The position numbers and the translations under genes are program-made. This document shows positions 4,842-32,772 of a DNA stretch of 35,028 nt, piece by piece (the stretch's first letter is position 1; every line of letters starts with the position of its first letter). The stretch is from Candidatus Chloroploca sp. Khr17 (lineage in GTDB: Bacteria; Chloroflexota; Chloroflexia; Chloroflexales; Chloroflexaceae), in the NCBI RefSeq assembly GCF_004138165.1, contig NZ_RYFF01000040.1, forward strand, positions 1 through 35,028. The letters are read 5' to 3'. Below the pieces are notes generated by a model. The model saw nothing but the letters and a program-made list of their open reading frames with translations, did not search any database and was not told the origin of the DNA.

Positions 4842-5355
4842 CGCAGTACCTCACGTGCGACGGCCCGCAGCGACGGGCACGCCGGATCACGCGCAGCCTG
4901 GGGAGGCTGCGCACACAACTGATAAGCGCACAACGCGCATCAGAAGGGCCGGGGAAAGCAGAAAGCAGAAAACCGAAAGCCGAAAGCGCAGCAGGCACCA
5001 CTGGATGCCTTGCCCGTTTCATCTTTCATCTTTCATCTTTCAGACATTTCCCTTTCCCCGGCGGGCGAATGCCGCCTGCGACCAGACAGTGCAGTTCAGA
5101 AATGACTGCCGGAAGCAGGGGTGGTGAGATGAGTATGGGTGAGACGAGTTGGCGGGGCATCAGTCGGGCTGACTGATAATAAAAGGAAGTGTGAGGGTTG
5201 GAAGGTATGCCTCACCAAGGCAAGATCAGGCAAGGCAATACAGAGGAATATATACTTATCTAACCGCGAAAGAGAGCATGAAATAGCATGAATAAATTAA
5301 GAGAACCGTTTTGCTTCCGAATGCTGTACATAGAGCACCTCGCACGCTCTATAAT
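4842..5355. other. Intergenic region with two 7-bp repeat blocks and a small hairpin
   Basis: No gene seen. It holds five 7-bp units of the type GAAAGCN (4954-4988), almost four units of TTTCATC (5017-5043), and a 7-bp inverted repeat ATCAGTC/GACTGAT with a 5-nt loop (5159-5177). From about 5160 to 5355 the sequence turns AT-rich, marking the edge of the low-GC NTPase gene. Confidence 0.6.
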
Positions 5356-10513: not shown

Positions 10514-10942
10514 CTACGCCGCTTCGTCCCACCAGACCTGCGCCGGCTGGCGTTGGGCCTCCGGCGTTGGCAGCGGGGGGTCAGCATTGAAGATCGTTGC
10601 CACGACGAGGATCAGTTCGCGGCGCGGGACACGCACCAACACCTCGCCGGTGCCATCGGCCAGCGGCAGGCGCTCGATCCCGGTGGCCTCGCGCAGTTCC
10701 AGGTGGCCCTCGACCAAGACGCGACTGCCAGCACCGAACTGCTGCGCAACGCTGGCGACCCGTGCGGCACCAACGACCTCCAGCGTGAGCCGCGTGGTCG
10801 CCACGACCGGGTGCCCGGCGACGAGCAGCGTACGCGCCGCGCACAGCGTGCTGACGCCGTAGATGACCCCATCGTCGCGCCGCCGGCGTTGCAGGTCGCG
10901 GCTGAGATGGCCGATCATGAGGACCCGACACAGATCTGACAT
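10514..10942 (-). CDS. SSB-like OB-fold protein, 142 aa
   Basis: Short OB-fold protein in the style of SSB/PriB: MSDLCRVLMIGHLSRDL as first strand, then VVATTRLTLEVVGAARVASV, FGAGSRVLVEGHLEL ('G..v.VeG.l' signature) and EVLVRVPRRELILVV, ending with a short proline-rich tail (QPAQVWWDEAA). It probably binds single-stranded DNA. A longer frame reaches 11521, but its extra part is translated repeat DNA. The ATG at 10942 is supported by AAGGAG 9 nt upstream (10952-10957). The 7-bp repeat block starts only about 16 bases upstream of the start codon, so any promoter must lie beyond or inside it. Confidence 0.65.
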   Translation of the reverse strand: MSDLCRVLMIGHLSRDLQRRRRDDGVIYGVSTLCAARTLLVAGHPVVATTRLTLEVVGAARVASVAQQFGAGSRVLVEGHLELREATGIERLPLADGTGEVLVRVPRRELILVVATIFNADPPLPTPEAQRQPAQVWWDEAA

Positions 10943-10958
10943 AGGTACATTCTCCTTC

Positions 10959-11128
10959 GTGACGAGCAATGAGTGACGAGTGACCGAGTGACGAGTGGCG
11001 AGTGACGAGCGATGAGTGACGAGTGACGAGTGACGAACGACGAACGACGAACGACGAGTGACGAGTGACGAGTGACGAGTGACGAGCGATGAGTGACGAA
11101 CGACGAGTGACGAGCGACGAGCGATGAG
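10959..11128. repeat. Block of about 24 heptanucleotide repeats (GAGTGAC type)
   Basis: About 170 bp built from 7-bp units: mostly GTGACGA, with GCGATGA, ACGAACG and GCGACGA variants, and one 8-bp unit near 10984. It sits in the leader region of the SSB-like gene. The period is constant although single units vary, as in the short tandemly repeated repetitive (STRR) sequences known from cyanobacteria. Confidence 0.85.
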
Positions 11129-11191
11129 TAGGATTTCCGGCATCCCTCTGCTGGCTGGGCGATGGTATCTTCCGTGTATACACCCCGCCAA

Positions 11192-15699: not shown

Positions 15700-18600
15700 A
15701 TGCCAGACGAGACTGACGAGAGCCGTCGCACTGCAAGCCCGTACTCCACGGGCGGAGGTGGCACGCGCCTTGAGCACCGACTCGGGGCGGTGCTGCTGGT
15801 TCGTCTACTCACGGCTGAGCCTATGCTCGAGTTGGGCGAGCGGGCACCGGAGCGCGTCGCGTTCCAACAGTCCCCGGCAACAAGCGTGGATGACCTTGTC
15901 GCCACAGCATCCACTGCGGCAGGGACTTCCCTTCGCCTTGAGATCGCCGTGCGCCGCTCGCCGAAGTTCATCAGGAGCGACGAGAAGACTAAAGAGCTCG
16001 TTGTAGCACTGGTTCGAGCGGATCTCGACGCCGAGCATGCTTCCGAGCCACTCGTAGAGCGCCGGCTTGCAGTCGCCGTCTCCGGCCAGCAAACGCACTC
16101 GCACGAGATCGCCGAGCTCGCTGTTGTCGCTCGAGGTCAGTCGACCGCCGAAGAGTTCATCGAACTTATTCGCACGCCGGGTAGGTTTGCGATCCACAGT
16201 CGGCTCGATCATCTCATCGACATGGTTGCCGCCGCCCTGTCCGAGATCTTCGACAAAGATGCTGGAACCCCCGAACACCGGTGTTGGAGCTTGCTCCGCC
16301 GGCTGTGGATCATGCAAGTCGATCTGGAGACCGGTCACGAGGGTGACTGGACTCGCCTGGTCAGCGACCTGAAGCGGGTTGCGCTCGATCCATCAAATGA
16401 AGCAGCCGTCGCTCTTCGCGATCGGATCGAGCAGCTGTCCGCTGAGTTTGCGCGAAGCGCTGCCGTGGTCGACGCCGCATTGCTGCGCCGACGGCTCCAC
16501 GGCCACATCCGTCCGGACGCACACGTACCGCCAGTTGGCTGGACGCGCCTGCTCGCACTCGATGAGCAAGCCCGCCTAGCAGTGGCGCGTTCACTCATCG
16601 GGGCCGGATCGACATCGTTGAAGCTGCCGCGTCGCGCGATCCGCGAGGAACTCGCAGCTGCGATGACGGTCGACGGCGACCTCATCGTCACGGGTGACTC
16701 TGGCGTTGGCAAGAGCGCCTTGGTGATGGATGCCATCGAACCGGGTGAGTTGGACGTAAACCGTCAAGCGATTGCCCTCAACTTGCGGCACCTACCAGCT
16801 AGCCAACTGGAGCTACTCGGACTGCTCTCCACTCCATTCGAGGACCTCTTCTCGGAACTGACTGCTCCCGACCGTCTCCTCGTTATTGACTCAGCAGAGG
16901 CAGCCGTCGAAGACCATAGGGATGCCTTCTCCTACTTGCTTCGCAGCGCGCGGGGCGCGGGCCTCAAGGTGATCGCTATTGCAGCGACCGAAGGAGTCGA
17001 CACCGTCACTCAATTGATGACATCCGGGCCACGCCAATTCACGGTTCAAGGACTCGACGATGACGAGCTTGCAACTGCCGCTTCGCACATCCCCGTCCTT
17101 CAGCGACTCGTCGACAACCCGCGTGCTCGCGAGCTCCTGCGCCGACCAATCGTCATCGAGCTGTTCGCGCGAGCCAACGATCCTGGCTTGCCTCTCAGCG
17201 AGGCGCAGGCACTCGACCACATTTGGCATCACCTTGTGCGAAATGACGAGCGGCGCAATATGGGAGCGCCCGATGCCCGCGAGCAAGTCATGTTGCGACT
17301 GGCTGTTCATGCGGTGCGGAGAGGTGATGTCGACGACCTGCTGGCACGGCTCGATTATACTGCCGTCGACGGCCTCCGACGGAGCGGGCTGCTCCTCCCC
17401 GCCAGCCGCCTTCCATGGGAACGGGCACCTGCCTTCAAGCATGATCTTCTGCGCGCCTACTCTCTCGCTCGTTGGCTCCTCTCAGAACGCGATCTTGTAG
17501 CCGCCCTGACGGCGATTGGCGCACCGCGGTGGACTTTAGCGTCGGCGCGACTCGCCTGCGAGATCGTCTTGTCTGCGCCGGATGAGCCGGCGCACCCACG
17601 AGCCGGCAGGTATGCTCGGCTCCAAACAGGGATCGATGCGATCGCCGATGCTGGCGGGGGTGAACGATGGTCCGACGTCCCGGTCGAAGCACTCCTGGTG
17701 ATGCCGGACGGCGACGAGCTACTCAAGGACGCGTGGCCGACGCTCCTCGACAACAAGGCTCACGGGCTCGCGCGCTTGATTCGCATCCTGCACGGCCGGC
17801 ACCAGCGCAAAGGGATACTCGACACTATCATCGCTGAACCGGTGATCTCCCAACTTCTCGACGTTGGAACGCCACAGACACTGGCCAAGGAAGTCAATGA
17901 GCTGATCCGTGACTGGCTGCGGGCACACGTGCATCAAGGCACCCCCGTCGGTCAACTAACACGAGTTGCATTACGCGACGCCATCCTCGACCAGTGCGCG
18001 AAGAAGGAGCGTGTACTCGACGAGCAAGAAGCCACCCGACAAGCCCAACTGGCTGCACGAACGCCAGAGGAGATCGCAGCTGACGAAGAGCGATGGAGGA
18101 ACCTGGCGTCAATCAGTAGCGTATCGGCGTCGCGGCACCGCCGTCGACGGCCCGAACCCACACGACACCGCCCACACATGTGGATCCGCGACGCCCAGGT
18201 CGAGCATCTCGCTTTGCTAGGGCCAGACCTCGGGCCGGAAGGCGAGGCGATCCTGCGACGTATCGCCGAGGACGAACCGCACTCACTCGATCACGCAGTC
18301 GAGCCGCTCTTCGCCGGTCACAGCCTTTCTGCCTACGACTCGAAGCTCCTCATCGACCTCGCGGCCGCGTACTACATCGAAGAGGAGGATGACGGCTTCG
18401 GGTGGTCCGGTGGAGTCCACGATGATGGCATCCGCAATCACCGATTCGGAGGAATCTGGTCACCATTTGCATCTTTCACAAAGGGACCTTTCCTCGCATT
18501 GTTCCGAGCTGACTACCGCGGCGGTGTCACATTCCTGAACCGGATGCTCGACCAGGCAGCTCGACACCGCGTCCGCATGCTCTCGATCCATCGCTACGGC

Positions 18601-20808
18601 TACCCTGCTGAGGAAGATCGACCCGGCACGAAGTACGTGCTCTCCATCACCGGTGAGCCACGCGAGTACATTGGTGATGGCAACGTCTGGGTCTGGTACC
18701 GGGGTATGGGTACCGGGCCATATCCCTGCATGAGCGCGTTGCAAGCGCTTGAGTTTGTGACCGAGGAGTACATCCGCGTTGGCATTTCGCCTCACGTCCT
18801 GACAACGATCATGCTCAAAGGTTCGCATAACTTGGCGATGCCGGCGCTGGCCCTCGGCGTGTTGGTTCGGCACCTGGAGATCGCTGGAGAGGCAATTGAT
18901 CCGTACCTCGTGGAGCCCATGGTCTGGCTGCTGGAGTCCTCCCGCGCGGTTAATGACCGAATGGACGGCCTCGCGGCACGGGTTCCCGAGCTACCTAACC
19001 CCGAGCGCCGGGGATGGAGCCTCCGCGAAGTGAGTATGATGCTGACACTTGGCGCAGAAGGCGACCGCATCGTTCATTTGAAGGCGCTCGGCAAACGATT
19101 GCTGGCCAACGCCGTCGCCAGAGTTGGGGACGACTCGTCGACTGGTGCGCACGAGCATCTCGCCGCTGTTCGAATATGGGCCTCGGCCCTCGACCGAGCC
19201 GCATACGATGTGAGGCAAGAGGGCGACCGCTTACTGATCCAGCTGGCTCGCGATCCAGAAGTTGAGCAAGTGCTGGGAGACAGTAACGCCGATCTTCGCC
19301 GAACGAACGACGCCATGGGGCTGACACTTCGGCACGCGCACGTGCGCGATAACGGCGGTCGCGCCCCTGACATCCATGCCGAAGCGCTTGCTGCAGACAT
19401 TGCCCTTGCGAGACAACTGCTAGACAAGCCTCCTCAGTCCGTAGGCTTCTCGGCGGACGGATCAGTCGCAGCTGCAGCTTCGGCAGTCGAGTTGCACCTC
19501 AGCGGCCGGAGCGCCGTCGCTGACGACGATCTGGCCTGGAGCGCGACGGTCCTCCTGCAAGTCGCAGCTAGCATTGCTGAAACCTCGGTCGATCGCTTTG
19601 ATGACTCCTTCTTCAGCCAGGGAGCCGATCGGTCTGCTGCGCGATCGTTGCCGTTTCTACTGCTACCTGCGGCACATAGCCTGCGAGCGGCGCTTGGCGT
19701 CCAGGGAACCGATGACGTGAATGAACTCATCGAGCTCAACCGTGCAGTTTCGGTGAGGGGAGCGAGCGAGGTGCGACTTGCCTACGCTCGTGCGCTCGAC
19801 GCTGTATGGAGCGCACCTTGCGACACGACACACCTACACGGCCGGTGCCACCACAGCATCGCCCTTGATCTTGTCACAGAGTCCTTCTTAGACTCCGTGA
19901 AAAGCCCATGGGACACCAAGGCGCAACGACAGCCGGTCGTCAGACTGGACCCACCCGAGGCCAGCACACTCGACACCTTGAATGGAGAAAATATCTATGC
20001 TCAGAGGCTCATACCCGCGCTACGAGCGATGGGTGCTGCGGCCATCAGCTCTGCGTGCTGCCGGGACGACGCACGAGCGGCGTTGCGCTCCCTCCTTGCA
20101 GCGTATCAGCGGGCGATGCTGACCTATGAGCACGGGTATAACCACAGCCAGAGCGACGCGCTCGTGGCTGCACGGGCAGCCCTGTGGCAGGCGATCGACG
20201 AGCGCGATGACGTCGTGCTCGACTACGTCCGGAACTATGTCTCGAACGCGCGCGTACTGGCCGAAGCACTACAGGCCCTTGCGGCGGCGGCGGAGGAGCG
20301 GGCGGAGGCCGGTCAGCACGCCTGCCGGCTCTGGCCGAGCGTCATGGATCTCGTACTCGACACGGCAGAGGCGAACTCGGAGCTCTTCACAGAGCACACC
20401 TGGGGGGACTACGCCGAGGCAGCTTTGATCCCAAACTCGGCCGCCGGGAGGAGTTACATCACGATCGAATTGGCGGGACAGCCGTACCGCTGGCGAGATC
20501 TTCTCACCTGGGGGTCCCAGGTAGACCGATGGCTAAGAGCGATCACCGGCAGTCGTATGAGCATCGATCATCTCGTGATCGCGGTACGGGATCTCGATGT
20601 TGCGAATCAGGTTGAACAAGGTCTCCGTTGGATCGAGCGAATAGTTGCCAAGAGCGGCGTCAACTGCGCCTCGACGTTCACGCTGCCCGAGTGGCTCCAC
20701 GAACGCCGAGCGGATCTCGTCACCGACGATCAGATCACTCGCTGGCAGCGGGTTGTCGACCTGCTTGTCGTCGCCGGTGACAGCCGAGTCTCTGATCTGG
20801 CTGATTGA
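15700..20808 (+). CDS. Giant P-loop NTPase with restriction-endonuclease-like N-terminus
   Basis: 1702 aa. The N-terminal 110 residues (YSTGGGGTRLEHRLGAVLL, then VDDLVATA, then LRLEIAVRRSPKF) resemble a type seen in large actinobacterial proteins and, in layout, the Cap4/DUF4297-like PD-(D/E)XK nucleases (Asp64/65, then ExxVRR where a nuclease would have (E/Q)xK). The usual Lys is Arg, so activity is uncertain. The NTPase has Walker A GDSGVGKS (332-339) and Walker B LLVIDS (about 393-398). About 1250 helical residues follow without known repeats; they probably sense the trigger. Fits a STAND/Avs-like defence protein. The ATG at 15700 has no Shine-Dalgarno, and a -10-like TATACA lies close upstream, so translation may be leaderless. 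GC-rich codons unlike the first NTPase suggest a different donor, perhaps actinobacterial. Confidence 0.7.
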   Translation: MPDETDESRRTASPYSTGGGGTRLEHRLGAVLLVRLLTAEPMLELGERAPERVAFQQSPATSVDDLVATASTAAGTSLRLEIAVRRSPKFIRSDEKTKELVVALVRADLDAEHASEPLVERRLAVAVSGQQTHSHEIAELAVVARGQSTAEEFIELIRTPGRFAIHSRLDHLIDMVAAALSEIFDKDAGTPEHRCWSLLRRLWIMQVDLETGHEGDWTRLVSDLKRVALDPSNEAAVALRDRIEQLSAEFARSAAVVDAALLRRRLHGHIRPDAHVPPVGWTRLLALDEQARLAVARSLIGAGSTSLKLPRRAIREELAAAMTVDGDLIVTGDSGVGKSALVMDAIEPGELDVNRQAIALNLRHLPASQLELLGLLSTPFEDLFSELTAPDRLLVIDSAEAAVEDHRDAFSYLLRSARGAGLKVIAIAATEGVDTVTQLMTSGPRQFTVQGLDDDELATAASHIPVLQRLVDNPRARELLRRPIVIELFARANDPGLPLSEAQALDHIWHHLVRNDERRNMGAPDAREQVMLRLAVHAVRRGDVDDLLARLDYTAVDGLRRSGLLLPASRLPWERAPAFKHDLLRAYSLARWLLSERDLVAALTAIGAPRWTLASARLACEIVLSAPDEPAHPRAGRYARLQTGIDAIADAGGGERWSDVPVEALLVMPDGDELLKDAWPTLLDNKAHGLARLIRILHGRHQRKGILDTIIAEPVISQLLDVGTPQTLAKEVNELIRDWLRAHVHQGTPVGQLTRVALRDAILDQCAKKERVLDEQEATRQAQLAARTPEEIAADEERWRNLASISSVSASRHRRRRPEPTRHRPHMWIRDAQVEHLALLGPDLGPEGEAILRRIAEDEPHSLDHAVEPLFAGHSLSAYDSKLLIDLAAAYYIEEEDDGFGWSGGVHDDGIRNHRFGGIWSPFASFTKGPFLALFRADYRGGVTFLNRMLDQAARHRVRMLSIHRYGYPAEEDRPGTKYVLSITGEPREYIGDGNVWVWYRGMGTGPYPCMSALQALEFVTEEYIRVGISPHVLTTIMLKGSHNLAMPALALGVLVRHLEIAGEAIDPYLVEPMVWLLESSRAVNDRMDGLAARVPELPNPERRGWSLREVSMMLTLGAEGDRIVHLKALGKRLLANAVARVGDDSSTGAHEHLAAVRIWASALDRAAYDVRQEGDRLLIQLARDPEVEQVLGDSNADLRRTNDAMGLTLRHAHVRDNGGRAPDIHAEALAADIALARQLLDKPPQSVGFSADGSVAAAASAVELHLSGRSAVADDDLAWSATVLLQVAASIAETSVDRFDDSFFSQGADRSAARSLPFLLLPAAHSLRAALGVQGTDDVNELIELNRAVSVRGASEVRLAYARALDAVWSAPCDTTHLHGRCHHSIALDLVTESFLDSVKSPWDTKAQRQPVVRLDPPEASTLDTLNGENIYAQRLIPALRAMGAAAISSACCRDDARAALRSLLAAYQRAMLTYEHGYNHSQSDALVAARAALWQAIDERDDVVLDYVRNYVSNARVLAEALQALAAAAEERAEAGQHACRLWPSVMDLVLDTAEANSELFTEHTWGDYAEAALIPNSAAGRSYITIELAGQPYRWRDLLTWGSQVDRWLRAITGSRMSIDHLVIAVRDLDVANQVEQGLRWIERIVAKSGVNCASTFTLPEWLHERRADLVTDDQITRWQRVVDLLVVAGDSRVSDLAD

Positions 20809-22316: not shown

Positions 22317-25300
22317 CTACGGGGGAGCCTGTCGTCTCGCCGGTGGGCCGGGCACGGCGGGCGGGGTGACGGCGGGGCCAGTGGGTGGGCGGGACGCGTC
22401 GCGCGGCCGCCGTCCGCGATCCTGCTGGGCCATGCTGCGCTCGTCGGTGGGGTAGCGGCGTACCAGGGCGGCGACGTAGCAGGCGTTGATCAGGGGGTGG
22501 ACGCCGTCGCGCTGCTGGCTGAGTTGGGCCAGGTGTTGGTCGGCGGGGAGGGTGCGTGGGCGCTGCGCCAGGTGCTGGGCCTCGTGCTGGGCACGGCGGG
22601 TCGCGACCGCACGCAGTTGTTCGATCAGCTGCTGGATCACGGCCCAGGCCTGGTCGCTCAACTGGCTCGTCCTCATTCCTTGCCCCTCGGCGACCAGCGC
22701 GGCGCGGTGTTCCTGGTGGAGGGCGCTGAGCCATGCGTGGGCCACCGCGCGGTAGACCGTCTCGGGCAGCAGATCCGGGTGGGTCGCCAGCGCCTCGCGG
22801 ACGCCCTGCTCCAGCGCTTCGAGGGTGGCTAGGTCGAGCGCTTCGGCGGGCGAGGCGGGCGTGAAGGGGGGCCGTGCGGTCGGGGGGTGCGCGGGGGCGG
22901 GCTGCTCGGGCGGGCGTTCACGGGGGATGGCTGACATCAGGCCCATGTCGCGGCGTTCCACGGGAAACCGAATGAGCAACTCTTCGCGGGGTTTGACGCC
23001 GGTGAAGTCCTCGGGTTGAAGCCCCTGGTTGGCGTAGGCGTTGACCAGGTCGCGGGTGTCATCGCGGACGCCGCTCGTCAGGCACATGCCGCCGATCACG
23101 TTCAGCACGATGCCACCCAGCTTTTCGCCCAGTTGGTTCAGCCCCTGGTGCGCGCCAATCAGGCCGACGCCCATCGAGCGCGTGCGCGTCCACATGCGCT
23201 CGGCGTCTTCGGCGCGTTCGGCCTTCACGAACATCTGCACCTCGTCGACGAAGAGCGGCCAGTCCCAGCGTTGCTCCGGGTCGGTTTCGTCCTGCTGGGC
23301 GAAGGTCGCGCTGACGATGCTCTGGAAGAGCGCCGCGCCCCAGAAGGCGGCATTCGTGTCGCCGATCGTTTCGGGCACGAATTTCATGATCACGATTGCC
23401 TGCGCGCGCATCGCCGTGGTCAGGTCGATGGTCGACGCAGGCTGGCAAAGCAGGCGCTGGCCGGTCTCGGAGCCAACCAGGCCGGTCAGGCGGCGCTTGA
23501 GGCTGTCAATCGAGGTCTTGATCTTCTCCGGCATCGCGGGCACCTGCACCAGCCAATAGTCACGGATGGCGGTGTCGACGACCCGGCTGAGCACGTCGTC
23601 GCGGTAGGCGGGCGACAAGTAGAAGCGCTCGAGGTGCAGCAGCGTCGGCGTGCGCTCGCCTTCCAGCAGCGCGCTGAGGCCCATGAAGAGCGCTTGCTGC
23701 ATGCCCAGCGCCCCGGCCCAGATCTCCGGCTCGATGCGGGCGAAGATCTGGCCGATCTCGCCCGCGACGACATCGCGTGGTTTGGCACGGATGAGCCGTC
23801 GGTCAAAAGGGTTGAGGCACGGCACCCAGGCGGCGGTGGTGTCGATCACGATCACGCGGTCGTACGCTTCCGGGGGCAGAATGCGCAGCAGCCGGTCGCA
23901 CAGGTCGCCCTTGGCGTCAATCACCCCGCAGCCACCGCCGAGGCGAGCAATTTCAACGACCATCGTCTCGACCAGGCTGCTCTTGCCGCTGCCCATACTG
24001 CCCATCGTATCCCAGCCCTGCCGCAGGTCGCGCAGGGTCGGGCCGATCAGGGCCAGCGTGCCATCGCGCTGCTGGGCGTAGGCCAGGCCCAGCCGACTGC
24101 GGCCAAGTTCGTGTGGTGTGGCTGGGCGTGGCTGCACCTGGCGCGCCTCGGCGGCGGCGGCCTCGGCGGGACTGAGGAAAGCGGCGACGGGCGCAGGCAG
24201 GTGCTTGCTGCTGCGCCAGGCGAACAGCGTCTCCAGGTCGAGCGACGGCGGGTGCCAGAAGGCGGCCAATTCGTACGGGCCGAGGATGCTGCGCTGCGTG
24301 CCCGGTGCTGGGAAGACCGTCCAGCGTGCGCCCGGCCAGACCGGGGGCGGGGCGTGCGCCCGCAGCGTCGCCAGGCGGTCGCGGCCCCGTGCGGCGCGCC
24401 GACGGGGGCTGCACGCAAGGACGCCGAGCAGGCCAGCGAGGGCGCTGAGGCTGGTCAGCACCGGGGCGAGCACGCAGGAGGGCAGCGTCAGCGGGGCCAC
24501 GGGCAACGAGATGGCGAGGTGGGGCAGCGCCTGGGCCAACGCCAGGCCTGCTACCGCACCGGTCAGGCCCGCCACCACCGCCCCGCTGATCGTCAGCCCG
24601 CCCCAAGGCGGCAGCGGGGCCGTCCCGATCGTCGCGGGGGTGAGCGGGATGAACACGAAGCCCGGGGTGCGTCCAGGCAGCCGACTGCCGACCCGCCGGA
24701 GGCGCTGGCGAGCGTCGCCCGCCGGACGACTGAAGGTTTGCAGCGCGTGGTGCATCGCCCGCACCTGGCGCACGGCGGCCGCACGGGTCTGGGCCGCGAC
24801 GAGGCAGCGCACGACGACGTCGAAGCCGTGGTGCTCGACTTTGCGCACCAACGCCTCGTAGGCGGCGAGGTCTTCCGGGTTGACCGTACCCTGGATCTGG
24901 CCGATCTGGTCACGCAGCGGCGCACGCCAGTCGTCGTGCGGCGGCAGCGCACGCAGGATCAGCTCGTAGGCCGCGTAGGTGACGCCCTCCTGCCGGGTCA
25001 GCGCCGTCGCCAATGGCCCGAGCGGGTCGCCGCCGACGAACATCGCCAGGTCTTTGAGCGGGTAGGACGGCGACCGGGCCAGGATGTAGTCGGCGGAGCC
25101 AGCGAGACGCGGCCCGTCCGGCTCCTGGCACTGGGCGAACATCGTCGCGACATCATCGCTCGCCGGGCGGGTCGTCGTGCCCGGGGCCTCGCCGCTCACC
25201 AGGTTGCGCAGGGCGTCGGTGCTAGCGAGCTGGGCAGCCTGCTGGGTGGGGGTCCGCACGGCCAGGCGCACCCGCTGATCCGCCATGCCATTGACCAGGG

Positions 25301-25841
25301 CAAAGACGACGTGATCGTCGCGGCCCTGGAGTTGCCCGGCGGGGTTCAAGAGCTCGCCGAGCCCGGCGAAGAGATCCACGCCTCGGCCCAACTCGGCCGC
25401 CGGGGTTCGCGGCAGATCGACGAGCATGGTCTGCACCGTCGTGCGCCGCCGCCGCACGATCTGGCGGGCGAGCATCCAGCCGCCAAGCACCAGGTGGAGC
25501 ACGACGCCGCTGAGCAGCGCGACCAGGCCCAATTTCACCCAAGGATAGGCCCCCTGCAGCCATGCGCCAAGCCGAGCCGCCAAGGGAGCCAGCGTCGGCG
25601 GGGCCTGGGTCAACGCATGCAGCACCGGGGTCGGGGCCAGGACGAACCCGTACACGAGCAGCAGCAGCACCACCCCGCCGAAGCGCATGAGCGAGCGCTG
25701 GCGACGCCGCGCCTTTGCGAGTTCCGCGTCGGTCGGCGGGCGCTCGTACGGATTGCCGTGCCAACGCGGGCTTTGCGTACGCGGCGGCACCCGCGACGGC
25801 GAGGACGCCCCGCCCTGGGTACTGGGGGAACGCGGCATCAT
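22317..25841 (-). CDS. VirD4/TraG-type coupling ATPase of the type IV secretion system
   Basis: 1174 aa. The N-terminus has a basic/proline leader, then two membrane segments (VVLLLLVYGFVLAPTPVLHAL; LGLVALLSGVVLHLVLGGWML), and two or three more around residue 410-470. The motor domain follows with Walker A GSMGSGKSSL (Lys620), CGVIDAKGDL, VIVIDTTAAWVPCLNPFDRR and Walker B LFVDEVQMF (Asp866/Glu867). Coupling proteins bring the relaxase-DNA complex to the secretion channel and pump the strand. The tail (about 960-1174) is proline- and glutamine-rich. The ATG at 25841 overlaps the upstream ORF by 4 bases and has GAGGAG 11 nt away. Longer than standard VirD4 because of the added membrane region and tail. 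Confidence 0.85.
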   Translation of the reverse strand: MMPRSPSTQGGASSPSRVPPRTQSPRWHGNPYERPPTDAELAKARRRQRSLMRFGGVVLLLLVYGFVLAPTPVLHALTQAPPTLAPLAARLGAWLQGAYPWVKLGLVALLSGVVLHLVLGGWMLARQIVRRRRTTVQTMLVDLPRTPAAELGRGVDLFAGLGELLNPAGQLQGRDDHVVFALVNGMADQRVRLAVRTPTQQAAQLASTDALRNLVSGEAPGTTTRPASDDVATMFAQCQEPDGPRLAGSADYILARSPSYPLKDLAMFVGGDPLGPLATALTRQEGVTYAAYELILRALPPHDDWRAPLRDQIGQIQGTVNPEDLAAYEALVRKVEHHGFDVVVRCLVAAQTRAAAVRQVRAMHHALQTFSRPAGDARQRLRRVGSRLPGRTPGFVFIPLTPATIGTAPLPPWGGLTISGAVVAGLTGAVAGLALAQALPHLAISLPVAPLTLPSCVLAPVLTSLSALAGLLGVLACSPRRRAARGRDRLATLRAHAPPPVWPGARWTVFPAPGTQRSILGPYELAAFWHPPSLDLETLFAWRSSKHLPAPVAAFLSPAEAAAAEARQVQPRPATPHELGRSRLGLAYAQQRDGTLALIGPTLRDLRQGWDTMGSMGSGKSSLVETMVVEIARLGGGCGVIDAKGDLCDRLLRILPPEAYDRVIVIDTTAAWVPCLNPFDRRLIRAKPRDVVAGEIGQIFARIEPEIWAGALGMQQALFMGLSALLEGERTPTLLHLERFYLSPAYRDDVLSRVVDTAIRDYWLVQVPAMPEKIKTSIDSLKRRLTGLVGSETGQRLLCQPASTIDLTTAMRAQAIVIMKFVPETIGDTNAAFWGAALFQSIVSATFAQQDETDPEQRWDWPLFVDEVQMFVKAERAEDAERMWTRTRSMGVGLIGAHQGLNQLGEKLGGIVLNVIGGMCLTSGVRDDTRDLVNAYANQGLQPEDFTGVKPREELLIRFPVERRDMGLMSAIPRERPPEQPAPAHPPTARPPFTPASPAEALDLATLEALEQGVREALATHPDLLPETVYRAVAHAWLSALHQEHRAALVAEGQGMRTSQLSDQAWAVIQQLIEQLRAVATRRAQHEAQHLAQRPRTLPADQHLAQLSQQRDGVHPLINACYVAALVRRYPTDERSMAQQDRGRRPRDASRPPTGPAVTPPAVPGPPARRQAPP

Positions 25842-26389
25842 GGGGTGGCGTTCTCCTCAGCGTCAGGCCGCGGCTGGTGCGCCGAGGCACTGGGGTGGGT
25901 CTGGGCGGCAGACGGCCTCATACGCACCCGCGTCGAGGGGCGGCGTTGGGGGCGTGGGGAACGCGCCATGATTGCTTTGGCCTCCTGCTGGTCGTCAGGC
26001 CGCGGCTGGTGCGTCGAGGGGCGGCGTTGGGGGCGTGGGGAACGCGCCATGATTGCTTTGGCCTCCTGCTGGTCGTCAGGCGACGGCTGGTAGGCCGAGG
26101 CACTGGGGTGGGCATGGGGGCAACGCCGCCGCATCACGTTGGCCTCCGCTTCCTCACGTCGGGGCGAAATGCACACCGAGGCTCCGCCCGGCGTGTTGGG
26201 GCAGCGGGCCATGATTATGATCGTTGCAGCCTCTGCTGGGTCGTTCGGCGGTGAGATGCGCGACGGCGCTGCGGCACGGTGCTGTGTCGGCACAAAAGGT
26301 GGCATCAAATGGGCGACCTCCTGCGGGTCGTCATCCGCCGACCCTCGTGAGGACGCACGGCCCTGGGTGCTCGGGAACAACGCGCTCAT
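25838..26389 (-). CDS. Repetitive 183-aa ORF made of duplicated translation start modules
   Basis: The frame starts with ATG at 26389 (TGATG overlap with the upstream stop) and ends at 25838 (ATGA overlap with the coupling gene). It is built of units of 26-31 residues of the type MARSPRPQRRPSTHQPRPDD with QQEA at the end. Each unit carries on the DNA a Shine-Dalgarno-like GGAGG-C block 7-12 bases before an ATG: ATGs at 26389, 26305, 26212, 26134, 26050 and 25969; the coupling protein's own start (25841) is the seventh copy. I do not recognise a protein family; the product is disordered and basic. It may be a real but unstructured protein, a leader that couples translation, or a by-product of DNA slippage. 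Confidence 0.45.
   Translation of the reverse strand: MSALFPSTQGRASSRGSADDDPQEVAHLMPPFVPTQHRAAAPSRISPPNDPAEAATIIIMARCPNTPGGASVCISPRREEAEANVMRRRCPHAHPSASAYQPSPDDQQEAKAIMARSPRPQRRPSTHQPRPDDQQEAKAIMARSPRPQRRPSTRVRMRPSAAQTHPSASAHQPRPDAEENATP
25969..26389. repeat. Degenerate tandem repeat array (units 78-93 bp)
   Basis: Distances between successive ATGs are 84, 93, 78, 84 and 81 bases. The two copies starting at 26050 and 25969 are nearly identical over their first 80 bases; the others are older. The next copy, at the coupling protein start, is in another frame. Confidence 0.7.
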
Positions 26390-27810
26390 CACTGGCCCTC
26401 CGCTGCGTCGTTCTGCCGCAGCGCGGGTTCGACGAGCAGGGGCAGGCCACGCCAGACCGTCTGCCCTCCGGGGAGCCAGGCGATGGCCTGGCCGACGTTG
26501 ACCACGGGCAGTCCGGCGGGGCGGAAGGCGTCGGGCAGCGCGGGGTACGGTGGATCAGGCACCTCGATCACGGGCAGCCGATGGCAGGCCGCCCGCAGGG
26601 CGGCAAGCGGCGGGCGGTCGCCCAGGATGAGGATGACTTGCACGCCGGGCTCAGGCACGAGCAAGGGCTGGAGATCCGGCCAGATCGTCGCCGAGGGCGT
26701 CATCACGAGCACCAGTGGCGGTGGGGCGAGCGTCGCCACGTGCCCGCGTGCGCGGGCGAAGCGCTGGCGCAGTTGTGCGTCACGGGCCTGGGCCAGGGCC
26801 TCAGGCTGCGGAACCAGGGCCGCCAGGCTTGGATGCAGCTCGCGCAGGCGGCCATCAGGGTCGTGGACGAACACCGCAGGGTGGTGGGCACCGGGCACCT
26901 GCGCACGCCCCGCCAGCAGGCCGAGCAGCGGGCCGTGCATGGCCCCCGCGAGCACCAGGTGCTGGTGGCACGGCAGCGGCCACCAGATCGGGCCCTGGCG
27001 CGTGCGCACGACGGGCAGCCAGCGCCACACCGCAGCCGCGGCGGCGGAGACGGCGGGCAAGGCGGCGGCCCGCACGGACGCCCGCAGCACGCTGAGGGTC
27101 GCCACGTCACGCCACCGCGCCCGAACCCCGTGCCCCTGAAGCGCCTGGATCACGGCCCGCTGCTGGCTCGTGGTCAACACCGGCGTGAGCGCCAGCTGGA
27201 ACACGAGGTGCCGGGGCTGGTCGTGAACGGCCAGCAGCGCGGGCGGGTGCGCCGTGACCTGGGCCACGGTCGTCATGACGAGCGTCGTCACCTCGGGCGG
27301 GGCGGGCTGCACCTGGCCCAGCGCGGGCCGCACTGGCGCTGGCGTGATGAACTCGAGATCCAGCGTCAGCCGTGGCCCGCGCACGCGGGGCCGGGCCAGG
27401 CGACGGGGCACGGCGGCGGCGCGGTGATGCGGCGGTTCCTGCGGCAGCGCGGCCGGGCGCGGCGGCTGTGCCGGTCGCGGCGGCGGGGCCATGAGGTGGG
27501 CGCGAACCGCGAGCCCGCGTACCTGCCAGCGCGCGAGCCGCAGCGCGGTGGGCCGCGTGGCACGCCAGGGCGGGGACGGCAGCACCACCCGCGTGCGGTG
27601 CCTCCACCAGCCGATGCCGAGACTGCCCACGCTGGTGGTCACGAGCATGACCAGCCCGGTGGCTGGGATGCGCTGCAGCGCATCCCAGCGGTGGAACCCG
27701 ATGAGGGCACCACCGACCAAGCTGACCAGGCTGACCAGGCCGACCAAGCCGACCACCACGACGGCAACGCGCAGGGCACGGGAACGGAACCTTCGGCGGT
27801 TGGACGTCAT
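26389..27810 (-). CDS. FtsK/HerA-like membrane protein lacking a P-loop
   Basis: 473 aa. The N-terminus has two membrane segments (VAVVVVGLVGLVSLVSLVGG with a Leu-Val-Ser repeat; GLVMLVTTSVGSLGIGWW). The C-terminal half follows FtsK/TcpA order: a strand-rich segment (LVFQLALTPVLTTSQQ), then PLPCHQHLVLAGAMHGPLLG where FtsK proteins have 'hllvaGatGsGKS', then PLVLVMTPSA in place of Walker B and VILILGDRPP in place of 'lilatQRP'. The Lys/Ser of Walker A and the acidic pair of Walker B are missing, so it is probably a non-hydrolysing partner, perhaps of the coupling ATPase or VirB4. The ATG at 27810 overlaps the upstream stop by 4 bases, and GGAGGC lies close upstream. The relation to FtsK is my reading of the pattern and needs a profile search. 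Confidence 0.5.
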   Translation of the reverse strand: MTSNRRRFRSRALRVAVVVVGLVGLVSLVSLVGGALIGFHRWDALQRIPATGLVMLVTTSVGSLGIGWWRHRTRVVLPSPPWRATRPTALRLARWQVRGLAVRAHLMAPPPRPAQPPRPAALPQEPPHHRAAAVPRRLARPRVRGPRLTLDLEFITPAPVRPALGQVQPAPPEVTTLVMTTVAQVTAHPPALLAVHDQPRHLVFQLALTPVLTTSQQRAVIQALQGHGVRARWRDVATLSVLRASVRAAALPAVSAAAAAVWRWLPVVRTRQGPIWWPLPCHQHLVLAGAMHGPLLGLLAGRAQVPGAHHPAVFVHDPDGRLRELHPSLAALVPQPEALAQARDAQLRQRFARARGHVATLAPPPLVLVMTPSATIWPDLQPLLVPEPGVQVILILGDRPPLAALRAACHRLPVIEVPDPPYPALPDAFRPAGLPVVNVGQAIAWLPGGQTVWRGLPLLVEPALRQNDAAEGQ

Positions 27811-29264
27811 TGCAGCGCCTCCGGCTGAATCTGCACGTACCAGAGCGCCGTCGGCCCGGTCGCCAGCAGCAGCTCGTGGCCCTGCCAGATCCCCCCCGTG
27901 CGCCCCTGCGTCTGGATCGTCGGCAGCACCACGAGCGTCGCGTCCGCATCCGCAGGCCAGCGCTGCACGGCCAGCGTGCCCTCCGCCGTGGGCCGGACAA
28001 TGCGCAGCGTCCCATCCGGTTGCACCGTCAGCGCGACCAGGTCGTCGGGCAGCGGGCCGACCCGTTCGGTCACGCCCGCCGCCAAGGTGACGCGATCCAG
28101 CGCCAGGCCCAGGCCCGTATCGGTCACCCACCAGAGCGCGTCGGCGGTCCAGGCCAGCGGGATGAGCCCCGCCGGGCGCGCCGGCGGAACGCGCAGCCGC
28201 GTCGCCCGGGCATCCGCACCGGGAGGGGCGAATTGGATCAGCACCGCGGTGTGGTCGAGCAGCGCCGTCGCGGTGGGTGGGGCGTCCGCTGGGGGCGTGG
28301 GCCGCGCCACGTGCGGCGGCGAGGGCGACGCGAGCGACGTGATGATCACCGCCGCCGCGCCATCCGGACTCCAGGCGAGGTGGTGGATCGTGCCAGGCAC
28401 CGTGATCAGCGGCACCTGGGCGTCAACCTGCGGCCGCGCCGGGTCAACGACCAGCACATCAACGCCCTGCGCGTGCGGCACGGCCACCAGCAGGTGACGG
28501 CCCCCTGGCGACCACCACACCCCGCGCAGACTCCGAGCCGTGGTGATGACCTGCGTGCCCGTCGGGCGCGTCAGGGTCAGGCTGCCGGCCACGCCGGGCA
28601 GCGGCGCACCCCGGTGAGGTTCCCAGACCGCCCAGAAGCGTGCGCCGTCGCGCGTGGTCTGCTCATCCGCGATGGCGTACGTCTCCAACACCGGGAGGCG
28701 CGTCAGGCCCTGGGCATCCAGGTGAAGGTGATAGGGCGCGGGTTCCGGCTGCGGCGGCCCCCAGCCCGGAGCCCCGGCCGACCGCTCCGGTTCCGGTCGC
28801 GTCGCCGTCAGCCGCCACCCGCTCCCCGCATCAGGACTCACCTGGAGCCAGGTGCTCTGCGGGTGCGGCAGCGGCACCGGCTGAACGAGGGGGATCGGGC
28901 GCATCGGCGGCACGATCAGCGTCGTCGTCTGCTGTCGGCTCACCTGGATCACGCTCGTCACCGGAAACGCCCCCGGCTGTGTGAAGTGCAGGGCATGCGG
29001 GCCGCTCGGCAGCACGATGCGTCCGGGACGCACCGGCCGGTCGGCGAGCTGCACCTGCACCTCCGGCGGCAGCGGCGGCACCAGCAGGGTACCACTGCCG
29101 CGCAGCACCGGCAGAAGCAGCCAGACGACGACCGCCAGCATGCTCACCACGCCTCCGGCCTGCAGGCCCTGCCGCAGGCGGTGGCGCTGGCGCTGGAGCC
29201 GGGCCGCCAGCACATCCAGGTGCAGCGTGAACGGGCCAACGTCAAGTTGGGACGGCACCCGCAT
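27807..29264 (-). CDS. Membrane-anchored PEGA-like/beta-propeller protein of the transfer operon
   Basis: 485 aa. One transmembrane helix near residue 35-60 (VSMLAVVVWLLLPVL) leaves a short basic cytoplasmic start and a large outside part. Residues 60-120 look like a PEGA domain (VQVQLADRPVRPGRIVLPSG, HALHFTQPG...). The rest is strand-rich with propeller-type blades: RGVWWSPGGRHLLVAV, IHHLAWSPDGAAAVIIT, LIPLAWTADALWWVTD, LVALTVQPDGTLRIV. Such TolB/WD40-like domains bind proteins or cell wall. It overlaps VirB4 by 23 bases and the FtsK-like gene by 4, so it is almost surely part of the machine, possibly the part facing the cell envelope. No such component is standard in known type IV systems. 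Confidence 0.6.
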   Translation of the reverse strand: MRVPSQLDVGPFTLHLDVLAARLQRQRHRLRQGLQAGGVVSMLAVVVWLLLPVLRGSGTLLVPPLPPEVQVQLADRPVRPGRIVLPSGPHALHFTQPGAFPVTSVIQVSRQQTTTLIVPPMRPIPLVQPVPLPHPQSTWLQVSPDAGSGWRLTATRPEPERSAGAPGWGPPQPEPAPYHLHLDAQGLTRLPVLETYAIADEQTTRDGARFWAVWEPHRGAPLPGVAGSLTLTRPTGTQVITTARSLRGVWWSPGGRHLLVAVPHAQGVDVLVVDPARPQVDAQVPLITVPGTIHHLAWSPDGAAAVIITSLASPSPPHVARPTPPADAPPTATALLDHTAVLIQFAPPGADARATRLRVPPARPAGLIPLAWTADALWWVTDTGLGLALDRVTLAAGVTERVGPLPDDLVALTVQPDGTLRIVRPTAEGTLAVQRWPADADATLVVLPTIQTQGRTGGIWQGHELLLATGPTALWYVQIQPEALQ

Positions 29265-31308
29265 CCGCGGCCTCCTCGTCAGGTGGCGGCGCCGCCGGGG
29301 TGCGTGCGCCGGGGATCAGGGCGTGGATGGGCGCGGGGGCCCGGGGAATCCGCAAGGGGATCGGCTCGCGTCCGACCAGGAGCAGCCCCGTCACCCCATC
29401 GGCATCCCGCCGACAGCGCGACAGCCAGGTGATCTCGCCCGGCGTCAGGCCCAGTTTGGTGGCCGCCTGCAGGATCGAGTTGTCGTCGTCCTGCACGCCC
29501 GCCCGCGCCGGGCGCAGCTGCCGGAGCAACAGGATCGTCTCGCAGTTGTCGAGAAAGGTCATCCCGGCGGCATTCGGCACCACCTGATCGCCGACCCGCC
29601 GCACGAGGAACTCGCGGATCTGCTGGGTGATGACCGTCACGGCGACGCCGAGTGAGCGCCCGAGCCGAGCCAGCAGCTCGATCGTCTGCGCTCCAGCTGC
29701 GGTATTGAGCACCGCCCAGGCCTCGTCGATGATCAGTTCCATGGGCCGTCCGGTGCCGCGCATCGCGACGGTCATGACGTAGTCGGCGATCAGCGCCGGC
29801 AGCACGCGCTGCAAGGTCTGATCCTGGCCCTGGACAAAAGCACTCAGGTCAATGCCCAGCACGCCCACATCGGCACGCAAGCGGGACGGTGGGATGGCCA
29901 AGGGCAGCGGGCGGTTGCCGTGGAGCAACCGCCCCAGCGAGCCTTCGGTAAAGAGCGTCAAGGCCGCGTCGAGCGCCGCGTCATGCGGACGCGCCGCCAG
30001 GGCCTGCGCCACCGTCCGCAGATCGGGCACGTCGGCATGAAAGGTCGTCGGGTCGCTGGTGATGCCGCGCTGCGCATAACAGGCCAGCACCGTTTCTTCC
30101 AGTTGGGCTTCCGCCGCGCCACTGAGCGGCATGCCCCGGGCGAGCGCTTCACTGGCGACCAGGTGTTTGACCAGCGCGGCCCGGCGGGCGCACAGATCGA
30201 TCTGCAAGCGGGCAAGCCGCGCCCCGACCGCCGCCTCGCCCCAGGGCAACGTCAGCGGGTTCAGTTGCAGCTCGGCTTGCGCCGAGAGCACCAGGTAGGT
30301 GCCGCCCAGGCCGGTCTCGATCAACGTACGATACTCCTGGTCTTTCGGGTCAAGCACACAGAGGTCGCAGGCGCCGTGGGCGAAGCGTTGGAGCAGCGCA
30401 GATGCTTGCTGGTAGGTTTTGCCGCCCCCGGTGGCGGCAATGGTCGCCTGATGGGGCGACGGCAGCGCAAAGCGGTCGAGCACCACCGGCGCCCCCCCGA
30501 CTTGTCCGGCCCCACTGCCCTCGGCCCGCACGCCATAGAGGATCGGCACGCCCTGCCCACTCTGCAGCGTCGCCGACGAGGCGGGCAGCAGGCGGGCGAG
30601 GGTGGGCGTATCGGTCTCGAACAGGGAACGCACCGCATCGTGCCCGAGCGGGGCCGTCGTCAGCAGGCCTTCCCAATGGTGAGCATCACAGGCCACGATC
30701 ATGATCTGGGCCTCGGTGCACGCGGCGCGGAGTTGGCGACTCCGTTCGTGCAACTCACGCCCATCGGCCCCCGCGACGGTCAGGTAGAGCCCGATCAGGT
30801 GCAGGGCGCGCTGCTCCTCGGTAATGGCCGCCAGCACCCGCCGCAGATCGTGGAGCGCGAGCACCTCGTCGGCCCCGGTCTCCCCGCCCTGGGTGAGCGC
30901 AACGCCCAACTGGTGAGCCAGGTGGGTCAGGCGCTCTTTGGCGAGCGCCCGGGGGAGCGGATGATTGACCAGCGCTGTCTGCACGCCGGGCAGTTGCATG
31001 ATCGGGACGAGCGCGCCAGGCGGAAGCATGCGCGGCAGCGCCAGCACGGCAAACGTGCGCGTGTAGCTCTGGCCGCTGCGCACATGGTCAATGGCCCCCC
31101 GATCAATGCTCGCCGGGGCGATCAGATCGGTCTCGGTCGTCACCGTACGCTCCCGCCGTCCGCCCACGGCGATCAGCGGCGCCCCGCTGCGGCGCCGGTG
31201 CCGGGTGATCAGCGGGGCCGCAGGATCAACCGGAGGCGGTTCTGCGGGGGCCTGGGCGGCCGCCGCCGCCCAGGGTGGGGCAGGCAACCGGGGATCAACG
31301 GGTGGCAT
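29242..31308 (-). CDS. VirB4/TraC-type ATPase of the type IV secretion system
   Basis: 688 aa. The N-terminus is a short proline-rich leader, then a VirB4-like middle domain (YTRTFAVLALPRMLPPGAL). The motor shows Walker A ATGGGKTYQ (Lys297), VLDPKDQEYRTLIE, the VirB4 signature LNPLTLPWG, and Walker B LIIDEAWAVL (Asp528/Glu529), followed by VTVITQQIREF and FLDNCETILLLRQ. VirB4 powers assembly of the channel and pilus and is required for conjugation. The ATG at 31308 has GGAGG 6 nt upstream. It overlaps the upstream 232-aa gene by 14 bases and the downstream gene by 23. The usual N-terminal domain is shorter than in classical VirB4 and may be supplied by the upstream gene. Confidence 0.85.
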   Translation of the reverse strand: MPPVDPRLPAPPWAAAAAQAPAEPPPVDPAAPLITRHRRRSGAPLIAVGGRRERTVTTETDLIAPASIDRGAIDHVRSGQSYTRTFAVLALPRMLPPGALVPIMQLPGVQTALVNHPLPRALAKERLTHLAHQLGVALTQGGETGADEVLALHDLRRVLAAITEEQRALHLIGLYLTVAGADGRELHERSRQLRAACTEAQIMIVACDAHHWEGLLTTAPLGHDAVRSLFETDTPTLARLLPASSATLQSGQGVPILYGVRAEGSGAGQVGGAPVVLDRFALPSPHQATIAATGGGKTYQQASALLQRFAHGACDLCVLDPKDQEYRTLIETGLGGTYLVLSAQAELQLNPLTLPWGEAAVGARLARLQIDLCARRAALVKHLVASEALARGMPLSGAAEAQLEETVLACYAQRGITSDPTTFHADVPDLRTVAQALAARPHDAALDAALTLFTEGSLGRLLHGNRPLPLAIPPSRLRADVGVLGIDLSAFVQGQDQTLQRVLPALIADYVMTVAMRGTGRPMELIIDEAWAVLNTAAGAQTIELLARLGRSLGVAVTVITQQIREFLVRRVGDQVVPNAAGMTFLDNCETILLLRQLRPARAGVQDDDNSILQAATKLGLTPGEITWLSRCRRDADGVTGLLLVGREPIPLRIPRAPAPIHALIPGARTPAAPPPDEEAADAGAVPT

Positions 31309-31993
31309 GGGAAACCTCCGGGGCAACGACCTGCAGCGGGCGGGGGGCTGCCACGGCCGTCAGCGCCTGCTGGCTCTCGGCGGCGACCGGGTCAAGCGCA
31401 GCGCGCAGCATGCGGCGAATGGCAGGGGCGCTCATCAGGGTGGGGGCGGGTTCCAGGCCCAGGGTCGCGAACTGCCCGGCCAAACGCCGCGCCCGCGTGA
31501 GCGCCTCGGTGACCGGATCGCCGGGCAAGCGCGTCACCTGCCCGACCAGCGCCGCCGGCCGCAACTCTCCCCACATCCCCGACGGCGGCGTCTCGGGGGC
31601 CACCGACGGCACGGCGATGACCCAGCGCACCGTGCGCAACTGCCCCAGCGCCGCCCAGGCGTGTTGGAGCGCGTCGGTGAGCGCCCCCAGGATGGCGTAA
31701 CTCCGAAAATCTGGGGCGCGTTGCTGCGCGGCCGTGAGCGTCTGAATGAGCGGAGCGTAATCCAGCGGCACCGCCATCGTCAGCAGACTGCACCGATCCG
31801 GGCAGGTACTGAACACATGGGTCGCCGCCTCGAGCAGCCGTGCGAGGGACGTCGCATCGTGCAAGCGCAGATCGGGTGGGGTCAGATCGATGAGTGCCAC
31901 CGCCACGCCATCCCCTCGCACGAGATAGCCCTCGCCGATGGTCAGGGCGCCCAGTGCCTCTTGCACCGAGCCAGGGGGTCGTGAACGAGCCAT
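31295..31993 (-). CDS. 232-aa protein, possible detached VirB4 N-terminal domain
   Basis: The protein reads EGYLVRGDGVAVALIDLTPP, then ATSLARLLEAATHVFSTCPD and SLLTMAVPLDYAPLIQTL, resembling the N-terminal part of VirB4/PrgI-linked ATPases, where a strand-rich start handles a dozen 'v...dg...aiiev.p.nf...s..e' residues. Helical end with many Ala and Arg. No P-loop. It sits directly upstream of VirB4 with a 14-base overlap and has AAAGGAG 8 nt before its ATG at 31993. It may associate with VirB4 to complete the missing N-terminal domain. This assignment is tentative. Confidence 0.5.
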   Translation of the reverse strand: MARSRPPGSVQEALGALTIGEGYLVRGDGVAVALIDLTPPDLRLHDATSLARLLEAATHVFSTCPDRCSLLTMAVPLDYAPLIQTLTAAQQRAPDFRSYAILGALTDALQHAWAALGQLRTVRWVIAVPSVAPETPPSGMWGELRPAALVGQVTRLPGDPVTEALTRARRLAGQFATLGLEPAPTLMSAPAIRRMLRAALDPVAAESQQALTAVAAPRPLQVVAPEVSHATR

Positions 31994-32010: not shown

Positions 32011-32118
32011 TGGGTCTCGGGTCTCGGGTCTCGGGTCTCGGGTCTTGGGGTTCAGGGTTCAGGGTTCAGGGTTCAGGGTTCGGGGTTCGGGGTTCGGAGT
32101 TCAGGGTTCAGGGCTCAG
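32011..32118. repeat. Heptanucleotide repeats (GGGTCTC, GGGTTCA, GGGTTCG types)
   Basis: About fifteen 7-bp units in succession: four GGGTCTC, one GGGTCTT, then about four GGGTTCA, three GGGTTCG and mixed ones up to 32118. The block starts right behind the Shine-Dalgarno of the 232-aa gene. Confidence 0.85.
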
Positions 32119-32388
32119 AGGTTGCGTGGGCAGGCCAGCACGGGCCTGATCAGGGCAACTGGAGGAGTCAGACCAGAGACCGTTGCGTAGGCTCCTTGAC
32201 CACCCTGAGCGAAGCGCAGGGTCGCAGGCGTCCCAACGGCAGTGTCGTACGCAGCCTGACCTGACCATGCGGCACCTTCACGGGTCATTGGTCTCACCTG
32301 GCATCGGGACACCCGGCGACCATCCTGGCCTTCAGGCTTTCCGATCCCCACTCCCCGATCCCCGATCCCCAATCCCCGACCGTCGGCA
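32119..32388. other. Intergenic region with further 7-bp repeats
   Basis: No gene seen. ACCCTG/CAGGGT (32202-32207 and 32217-32222) around AGCGAAGCG is a common small intergenic hairpin type. A second heptad block of the type CCCCGAT lies at about 32345-32380, and a third (TGACCCC type, 32409-32445) already lies inside the 3' end of the next gene. Confidence 0.5.
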
Positions 32389-32772
32389 TCACCCCCCACG
32401 GCGCATCCTGACCCCTGACCTCTGACCCCTGGCCCCTGCGCCCCGTTCCCTCACCTCAACCGTACGCGTCACAATGAGCAATGCGGGTCGTCGGACGTGG
32501 CGGCTCAACACCACCACCCAGGACAGCGGCGTCCGGCCACGTGGTTTCAGTTCCACCAGCGCGGCGATAAGACTGGCCGGAACCAGGACGATCCCGGCCA
32601 GCAGGGTCCACGCGATGGGCGTCAGCGTTGCCAGCGCCCCCCAGATCAGCACCGCCACCAGCAGCAACGTGCCAGCACGGGCGGGGAGCCGGATGGCTCG
32701 CCCGGGAAAGGGGCGGATCGTGACCGTGGGACGCACCTGCAACCCAGTTGGCACCTCGTGAACCAGACTCAT
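32389..32772 (-). CDS. PrgI/VirB3-like small membrane protein of the type IV secretion system
   Basis: 127 aa. Two hydrophobic segments back to back (LLLVAVLIWGALATL, IAWTLLAGIVLVPASLIAAL) after a basic start, with KPRGRTPLSWVVVLSRHVRR behind: the hairpin layout of PrgI/VirB3 proteins that sit at the inner membrane and bind VirB4. The ATG at 32772 has AAGGAGG 9 nt upstream. The last 20 residues (RERGAGARGQRSG...) are encoded by 7-bp repeats, so the repeat block has taken over the end of the gene. The short distance to the pilin gene and position ahead of VirB4 agree with the usual order. Confidence 0.65.
   Translation of the reverse strand: MSLVHEVPTGLQVRPTVTIRPFPGRAIRLPARAGTLLLVAVLIWGALATLTPIAWTLLAGIVLVPASLIAALVELKPRGRTPLSWVVVLSRHVRRPALLIVTRTVEVRERGAGARGQRSGVRMRRGG

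Follow-up and report, generated by a model that had tools for sequence, protein, structure and literature searches.

Junctions with overlapping stop and start codons are a common feature of operons, and it is rarely visible how they keep working once repeats expand within them. Coupling at such overlaps has been tested with reporters in Escherichia coli and Haloferax volcanii, as set out in the excerpted part of that study (PMC6728339). Repeats close to start codons have likewise been described: in Moraxella catarrhalis the uspA1 poly-G tract and the uspA2 repeats, which lie between promoter and start codon, set expression, and heptamer repeats that precede start codons in Beggiatoaceae and Cyanobacteria have a proposed translational role (PMC4679880, in the extracts drawn on here). 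The locus considered in the present work is located on the minus strand of a 35,028-nucleotide (nt) stretch of Candidatus Chloroploca sp. Khr17 (contig NZ_RYFF01000040.1, positions 1 to 35,028; the whole stretch is hereafter termed the window) belonging to a 6.38-Mb genome, where an array of tandem units, each headed by an ATG and most of them carrying a Shine-Dalgarno (SD) motif, lies between gene P0003 and P0002, the gene for a VirD4-like ATPase. The preferred reading, to which a probability of about 0.7 is given, is that of a lineage-specific expansion of a coupled gene junction, one that is still under way and has been mainly tolerated.

The locus resembles the overlapping termination-reinitiation pairs (ATGA or TGATG) of the excerpted study in having 1-nt or 4-nt overlaps at both ends of the leader open reading frame (ORF) formed by the array as well as between P0004 and P0003, and in placing SDs inside upstream frames; it differs in that the junction itself has been multiplied, giving a relay ORF that has several in-frame starts within it and for which coupling would be presumed (PMC6728339). 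The heptamers of Beggiatoaceae and Cyanobacteria are similarly direct repeats sited by starts; as presented in the extracts they are seven-base units, by way of contrast with SD-ATG modules originating from a gene junction. The uspA2 repeats are accommodated in an untranslated leader, whereas the present copies are gene starts of about 80 nt, with SD and ATG, lying within an ORF; furthermore, copy-number variation of the uspA2 kind was not seen here, neither congener having a readable junction (PMC4679880, same extracts). No description of a tandem array of gene-start modules was found among the papers listed by the literature searches, as judged by titles and abstract openings. The locus displays repeat expansion inside an overlap junction, with the ancestral state kept in relatives; if initiation at the internal starts does lead to the shared stop, tandem duplication would alter the translation of one operon gene and leave its promoter untouched.

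Organisation of the array

The array is bounded and formed by the following features:

26389 to 27810, minus strand: upstream gene P0003, the SD-bearing tail of which makes up the rest of the copied junction
25838 to 26389, minus strand: leader ORF of 183 residues (ATG 26389 to TGA 25840-25838), composed of tandem diverged start units
22317 to 25841, minus strand: P0002, VirD4-like ATPase gene of 1174 amino acids (aa), very probably the gene from which the copied start came

The P0003 stop and the leader start overlap as TGATG (or as GTGA if the alternative start GTG 26392, giving 184 residues, is used) at 26392-26387, and the leader stop and the ATPase start overlap as ATGA at 25841-25838, so that the chain of stop-start overlaps has been left unbroken by the expansion. 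At each end the SD is placed inside the upstream reading frame, as GGAGG before U1 and as a moderate GAGGAG before the ATPase, and the leader is read in a different frame from the 1174-aa ATPase ORF. The start of P0003 at 27810 is itself deduced from an ATGA overlap and from the gene of relative G014 (see below).

The units, in order of reading, are:

26306 to 26389, minus strand: U1, 84 nt; GGAGG with a 7-nt spacer, from the upstream gene; the copy closest to the ATPase start
26213 to 26305, minus strand: U2, 93 nt; AGGAGG with an 11-nt spacer
26135 to 26212, minus strand: U3, 78 nt; weak SD, GAGG 16 nt away
26051 to 26134, minus strand: U4, 84 nt; GGAGG with an 8-nt spacer, GTGATG
25970 to 26050, minus strand: U5, 81 nt; AGGAGG with an 11-nt spacer; belongs to a 71-base exact repeat
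25922 to 25969, minus strand: U6, 48 nt; a shortened copy of U5
25842 to 25921, minus strand: U7, 80 nt; headed by an in-frame ATG that has no SD motif; resembles U4

Successive starts are thus separated by steps of 84, 93, 78, 84, 81, 48 and 80 nt, six of the seven being multiples of three and the last not: U7 is one nt short of 81, which shifts the frame. The ATPase N-terminus MMPRSPSTQGGASSPSRVPPR recurs in altered form in the unit translations, as MSALFPSTQGRASS (U1), MPPFVPTQHRAAAPSRISPP (U2), MARCPNTPGGAS (U3) and MARSPRPQRRPST (U5); U2 also contains the stretch APSRISPP, which resembles SPSRVPPR of the ATPase, and U4 and U7 have 19 identical bases in common.

The original prediction, made from the letters alone, had listed minus-strand ATGs at 26389, 26305, 26212, 26134, 26050, 25969 and 25841, all seven of which are present at these positions, and ORF analysis agreed with its description of the upstream copies as one frame of 183 residues and of the ATPase start as lying in another. 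Its remaining particulars called for some revision. A GGAGG-type SD, ascribed to every copy, is strong at five of the six upstream ATGs listed, the ATG at 26212 having GAGG 16 bases off, and at the ATPase start the motif is GAGGAG with an 11-base spacer and not GGAGG. The proposed steps of 78 to 93 bases were recovered as 84, 93, 78, 84 and 81, and the final interval of about 128 proved to be 48 plus 80, split by an eighth in-frame ATG at 25921 that heads a unit much like the one at 26134. The CGCG..CCC start of coding attributed to all copies takes the exact form CGCGTTCCCC at 26050, 25969 and 25841 only.

Duplex energies, calculated with the anti-SD of family member G033 and not with one from the host's own 16S, were -10.0, -11.5, -5.8, -9.5, -10.3, -10.3 and -6.3 kcal/mol for U1 to U7 and -8.6 kcal/mol for the ATPase; a 16S 3' end was not found in the window genome or in the two congeners. 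Among 71 ATGs inside neighbouring genes, which served as background, 2, 1, 21, 5, 2, 2 and 14 respectively were equally strong (ATPase, 9). Clearly good SDs consequently stand at five of the seven upstream ATGs when that at 25921 is counted (U1, U2, U4, U5 and U6). Local folding gave unpaired fractions of 0.36-0.59 at the starts (regional mean 0.41, standard deviation 0.08), with U3 (0.59) and the ATPase (0.55) the most accessible; the strong-SD starts were not unusually accessible by this measure, except U6 at 0.53.

Origin of the copies

Pieces of the ATPase at an identity of at least 54% were located in seven other genomes (200 and 158 genomes searched). The junction could be read in four of these, G013, G014, G031 and G074, all outside the genus; G001, G002 and G035 show C-terminal ATPase pieces only. 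All four readable relatives lack an array, and in each the upstream gene and the ATPase gene overlap directly by 4 nt, as ATGA in G013 and G014 and as GTGA in G031 and G074; the G014 overlap is formed by an upstream gene end at 6644 and an ATPase start at 6641. DNA alignment matched the one junction present in G014 (6602-6683) to the array twice, once at each end (about 26428-26347 and about 25883-25802 of the window), and the G013 junction (10532-10581) likewise matches both. U1 and U3 aligned with the G014 junction at z = 9.0 and 3.4 and with the G013 junction at z = 5.8 and 4.0, and U3 taken together with its upstream bases was identical to the G014 junction in 48 of 72 columns. Because a single junction is present in the relatives, against one copy at each array end and diverged copies between them in the window, the copied piece corresponds to the whole junction, and its tandem duplication is almost certainly how the array arose. 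The serial duplication of a start module originally proposed is accordingly well supported, with the relatives' single junction identifying the whole of it as the piece copied.

A self-copy upstream of the overlap start was detected in the window at z = 6.6, the values for the four readable relatives (loci L048, L049, L032 and L045), whose starts thus have no upstream copy, lying between -1.1 and 0.2. In a scan of 20 more distant homologues, which did not cover the window and L048 and took the first or best-SD start as the gene start, possibly wrongly, no upstream self-repeat exceeded z = 3, the highest being L070 at 2.9. Within the array, 71 identical bases recur 81 nt apart (26081-26011 and 26000-25930), a result indicative of a recent duplication, and most other units are strongly diverged. 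An assembly artefact is unlikely because most units differ.

Neither of the two congeners keeps a readable junction: the G001 locus retains only ATPase residues 833-1174, and contigs of G002 end within P0003 and within the ATPase. The break in G001 and that in P0003 of G002 share a short repeat (L046 end; L076 near 5330-5410), which is probably an insertion-sequence end, and the occurrence of the same repeat at breaks in both congeners suggests an operon module decaying within the genus. G013 keeps no more of the upstream gene than a tail (residues 448-579), and a search of that genome for a VirB4-like gene found none. The Chloroploca asiatica genome is reported as a 5.8-Mb draft from 150-bp Illumina reads at 86-fold coverage (PMC6180586, excerpt).

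Comparison with chance expectation

Tandem Repeats Finder reported an 81-bp array. The pattern GGAGG-N5..12-ATG-N60..85-GGAGG had five matches in the window, three of them in the array, against an expectation of 0.41, and none of 100 shuffles reached five. A longer form of the pattern had four matches in the 6.38-Mb genome, three again in the array, and its reversed control had none. Across 61 genomes, the host's own included, 48 matches were recorded in 25 genomes (1 to 5 each), the reversed control giving 17 matches in 13 of the same set. Contig 70 of G036 carries at 84477-84827 an 83-bp tandem repeat with four chained SD-ATG matches, from which it follows that SD-ATG-like repeat arrays exist elsewhere; 83 is not a multiple of three.

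Among the 28 pairs formed by the seven units and the ATPase start, the best local alignments were those of U5 with U6 (z = 24), U4 with U7 (9.7) and U1 with the ATPase start (9.3); U2 and the ATPase start reached z = 3.2 in local alignment of their DNA.

A number of observations weigh against the preferred reading. Several unit pairs appear, from their alignments, too diverged for pairwise proof of homology, those of U2 with U3 (z = -0.1), U1 with U2 (0.3) and U7 with the ATPase start (1.3) being no better than shuffled pairs. Global identity to the ATPase start was 0.80 for U1 and 0.62-0.67 for U2 to U7, the latter close to the 0.61 of shuffles; this measure does not discriminate, and homology thus rests on the local alignments and the relatives. 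The leader region is open in one of six frames, a property shared by 394 of 5000 Markov (base-composition) sequences, so openness alone is weak evidence. The SD of the ATPase is only moderate, as 9 of the 71 background ATGs equal it, and gain or loss of units was seen in no other strain, neither congener having a readable junction.

Proposed mechanism and rival explanations

On the preferred reading, the overlapping P0003/ATPase junction was copied in tandem again and again, by about 81-84 bases at a time, every copy bringing with it an SD from the upstream tail plus the first ATPase codons. Old copies diverged, with the newest, U5 and U6, still nearly identical, and the leader has inherited overlaps at both ends, P0003 stopping on the leader start and the leader stopping on the ATPase start. 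Ribosomes that finish P0003 may start again on the leader and pass at its ATGA on to the ATPase; internal SD-ATGs may recruit some more, and every one of these would terminate at the common stop. As coupling would survive, the expansion would be mostly tolerated, and ATPase dose would change modestly at most. It is rather probable that the leader is translated and coupled; an influence of the internal starts on dose is unlikely, if not negligibly so.

The coding character of the region is mixed. Guanine plus cytosine (GC) content by codon position is 0.69/0.63/0.76 in the leader and 0.74/0.52/0.88 in the ATPase gene, a leader pattern that is coding-like but eroded. The ATPase N-terminus, as judged by codon changes, appears to be under purifying selection: between the window and G014, 14 of 30 codons are identical, 15 differ synonymously and 1 non-synonymously, and between the window and G013 the changed codons comprise 10 synonymous and 1 non-synonymous. 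U1 and the ATPase start show 3 synonymous and 2 non-synonymous differences over 10 codons of a hand-picked gapless stretch. The corresponding values for U4 and U7 are 10 identical, 2 synonymous and 9 non-synonymous among 21 codons; this comparison was ungapped and may count too many changes as non-synonymous.

The rival that survives best is a selected dose device in which each SD-ATG unit loads a ribosome, all units are read in one frame to a single stop overlapping the ATPase start, and ATPase output is set or varied by how many units there are. Five of the seven units (four of six if the recent pair U5/U6 is counted once) combine an ATG, a strong SD and an open frame, whereas a neutral simulation left this combination in 24% of units when divergence was 20% and in 10% when it was 30%, a contrast that leans toward some upkeep of the start signals, although units were defined by their ATG and are not independent, and the ancestor was assumed. 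Six of the seven steps being multiples of three and the recent date of the newest duplication also fit such a device. Set against these points, one unit has a weak SD and another no SD motif, spacers of 11 nt are long, four relatives do without any array, and strain variation was not seen; a selected device is doubtful. Tolerated slippage fits at least as well as copy-number tuning of the ATPase, and a ribosome-collecting leader, in which each unit gained or lost by recombination would step the ATPase dose up or down, is improbable.

An array that is in truth an N-terminal extension of the ATPase, cut off by one missing base (80 in place of 81), whether the cause is a frameshift of recent date, an error in sequencing or programmed frameshifting, would account for the other steps being multiples of three and for the copied codons standing in the ATPase's own frame. 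Such an extension is not needed, however, because the ATPases of G013 and G014, which have no array, begin at this ATGATG too and conserve the N-terminus, and no canonical slippery heptamer was apparent by eye at the ACCCCATGA end; this explanation is very improbable.

That the leader encodes a functional repetitive protein is the least probable explanation: it is open in one frame only and equipped with SDs, but has no Pfam or NCBIfam match and, in 90 genomes, no convincing homologue (its own sequence plus one weak, chance-like match of 31% identity over 71 residues with an internal stop), and the U4 versus U7 changes are mostly non-synonymous (9 vs 2). The amino-acid sequence of the leader is probably without function. 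Homologous elements with the same unit number and a conserved 183-aa protein, which would have spoken against the original prediction, were not encountered: the four readable relatives have zero extra units, and the protein is unconserved.

Operon context and neighbouring genes

Two further genes belong to the same operon:

27807 to 29264, minus strand: P0004, with an ATGA overlap with P0003 at 27810-27807
29242 to 31326, minus strand: P0005, VirB4-like ATPase gene, start uncertain

P0002 reached no curated model (TrwB_AAD_bind at E 0.036 and 13.4 bits, cut-off 20.5; no NCBIfam match). Translated searches (tblastn) of plasmids with P0002 gave type IV secretion system DNA-binding, conjugative DNA transfer and TraM-recognition proteins at E values of 7e-18 to 3e-8, together with a best match at E 2e-38 annotated as hypothetical; distant ATPases were present in 11 plasmid records, at 30.6% identity at best, and no close relatives were found in the viral contigs searched. 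P0002 is likely, on this distant similarity of its ATPase core and with a VirB4-like gene nearby, to be a VirD4-like coupling protein. P0005 matched the NCBIfam CD1110-family VirB4-like model at E 1.6e-23 and 82.9 bits, below the cut-off of 325; both P0002 and P0005 weakly match PADLOC mad8, and P0005 also HerA. A structure model of the ATPase built from a 5-sequence alignment had a mean predicted local distance difference test (pLDDT) score of 36.

Large proteins are encoded at 5356-9786 (minus strand) and 15700-20808 (plus strand), one having a weak novel STAND NTPase match below cut-off and one a weak Avs4 match; the operon may thus be flanked by genes of conflict or defence. Two adjacent CHAT-domain proteins are encoded at about 35008-39255 of the contig, beginning in the final bases of the window (L051, 9-2273 and 2277-4256), the first with a weak TPR match and a match to the Csx29 TPR-CHAT model below cut-off. 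Heptamer tandem arrays are present in the window at 10959-11129, 32012-32123, 32341-32379 and 32407-32438, and (GTGACGA)n has a matching stretch at 5731-5768 of the G013 locus L049.

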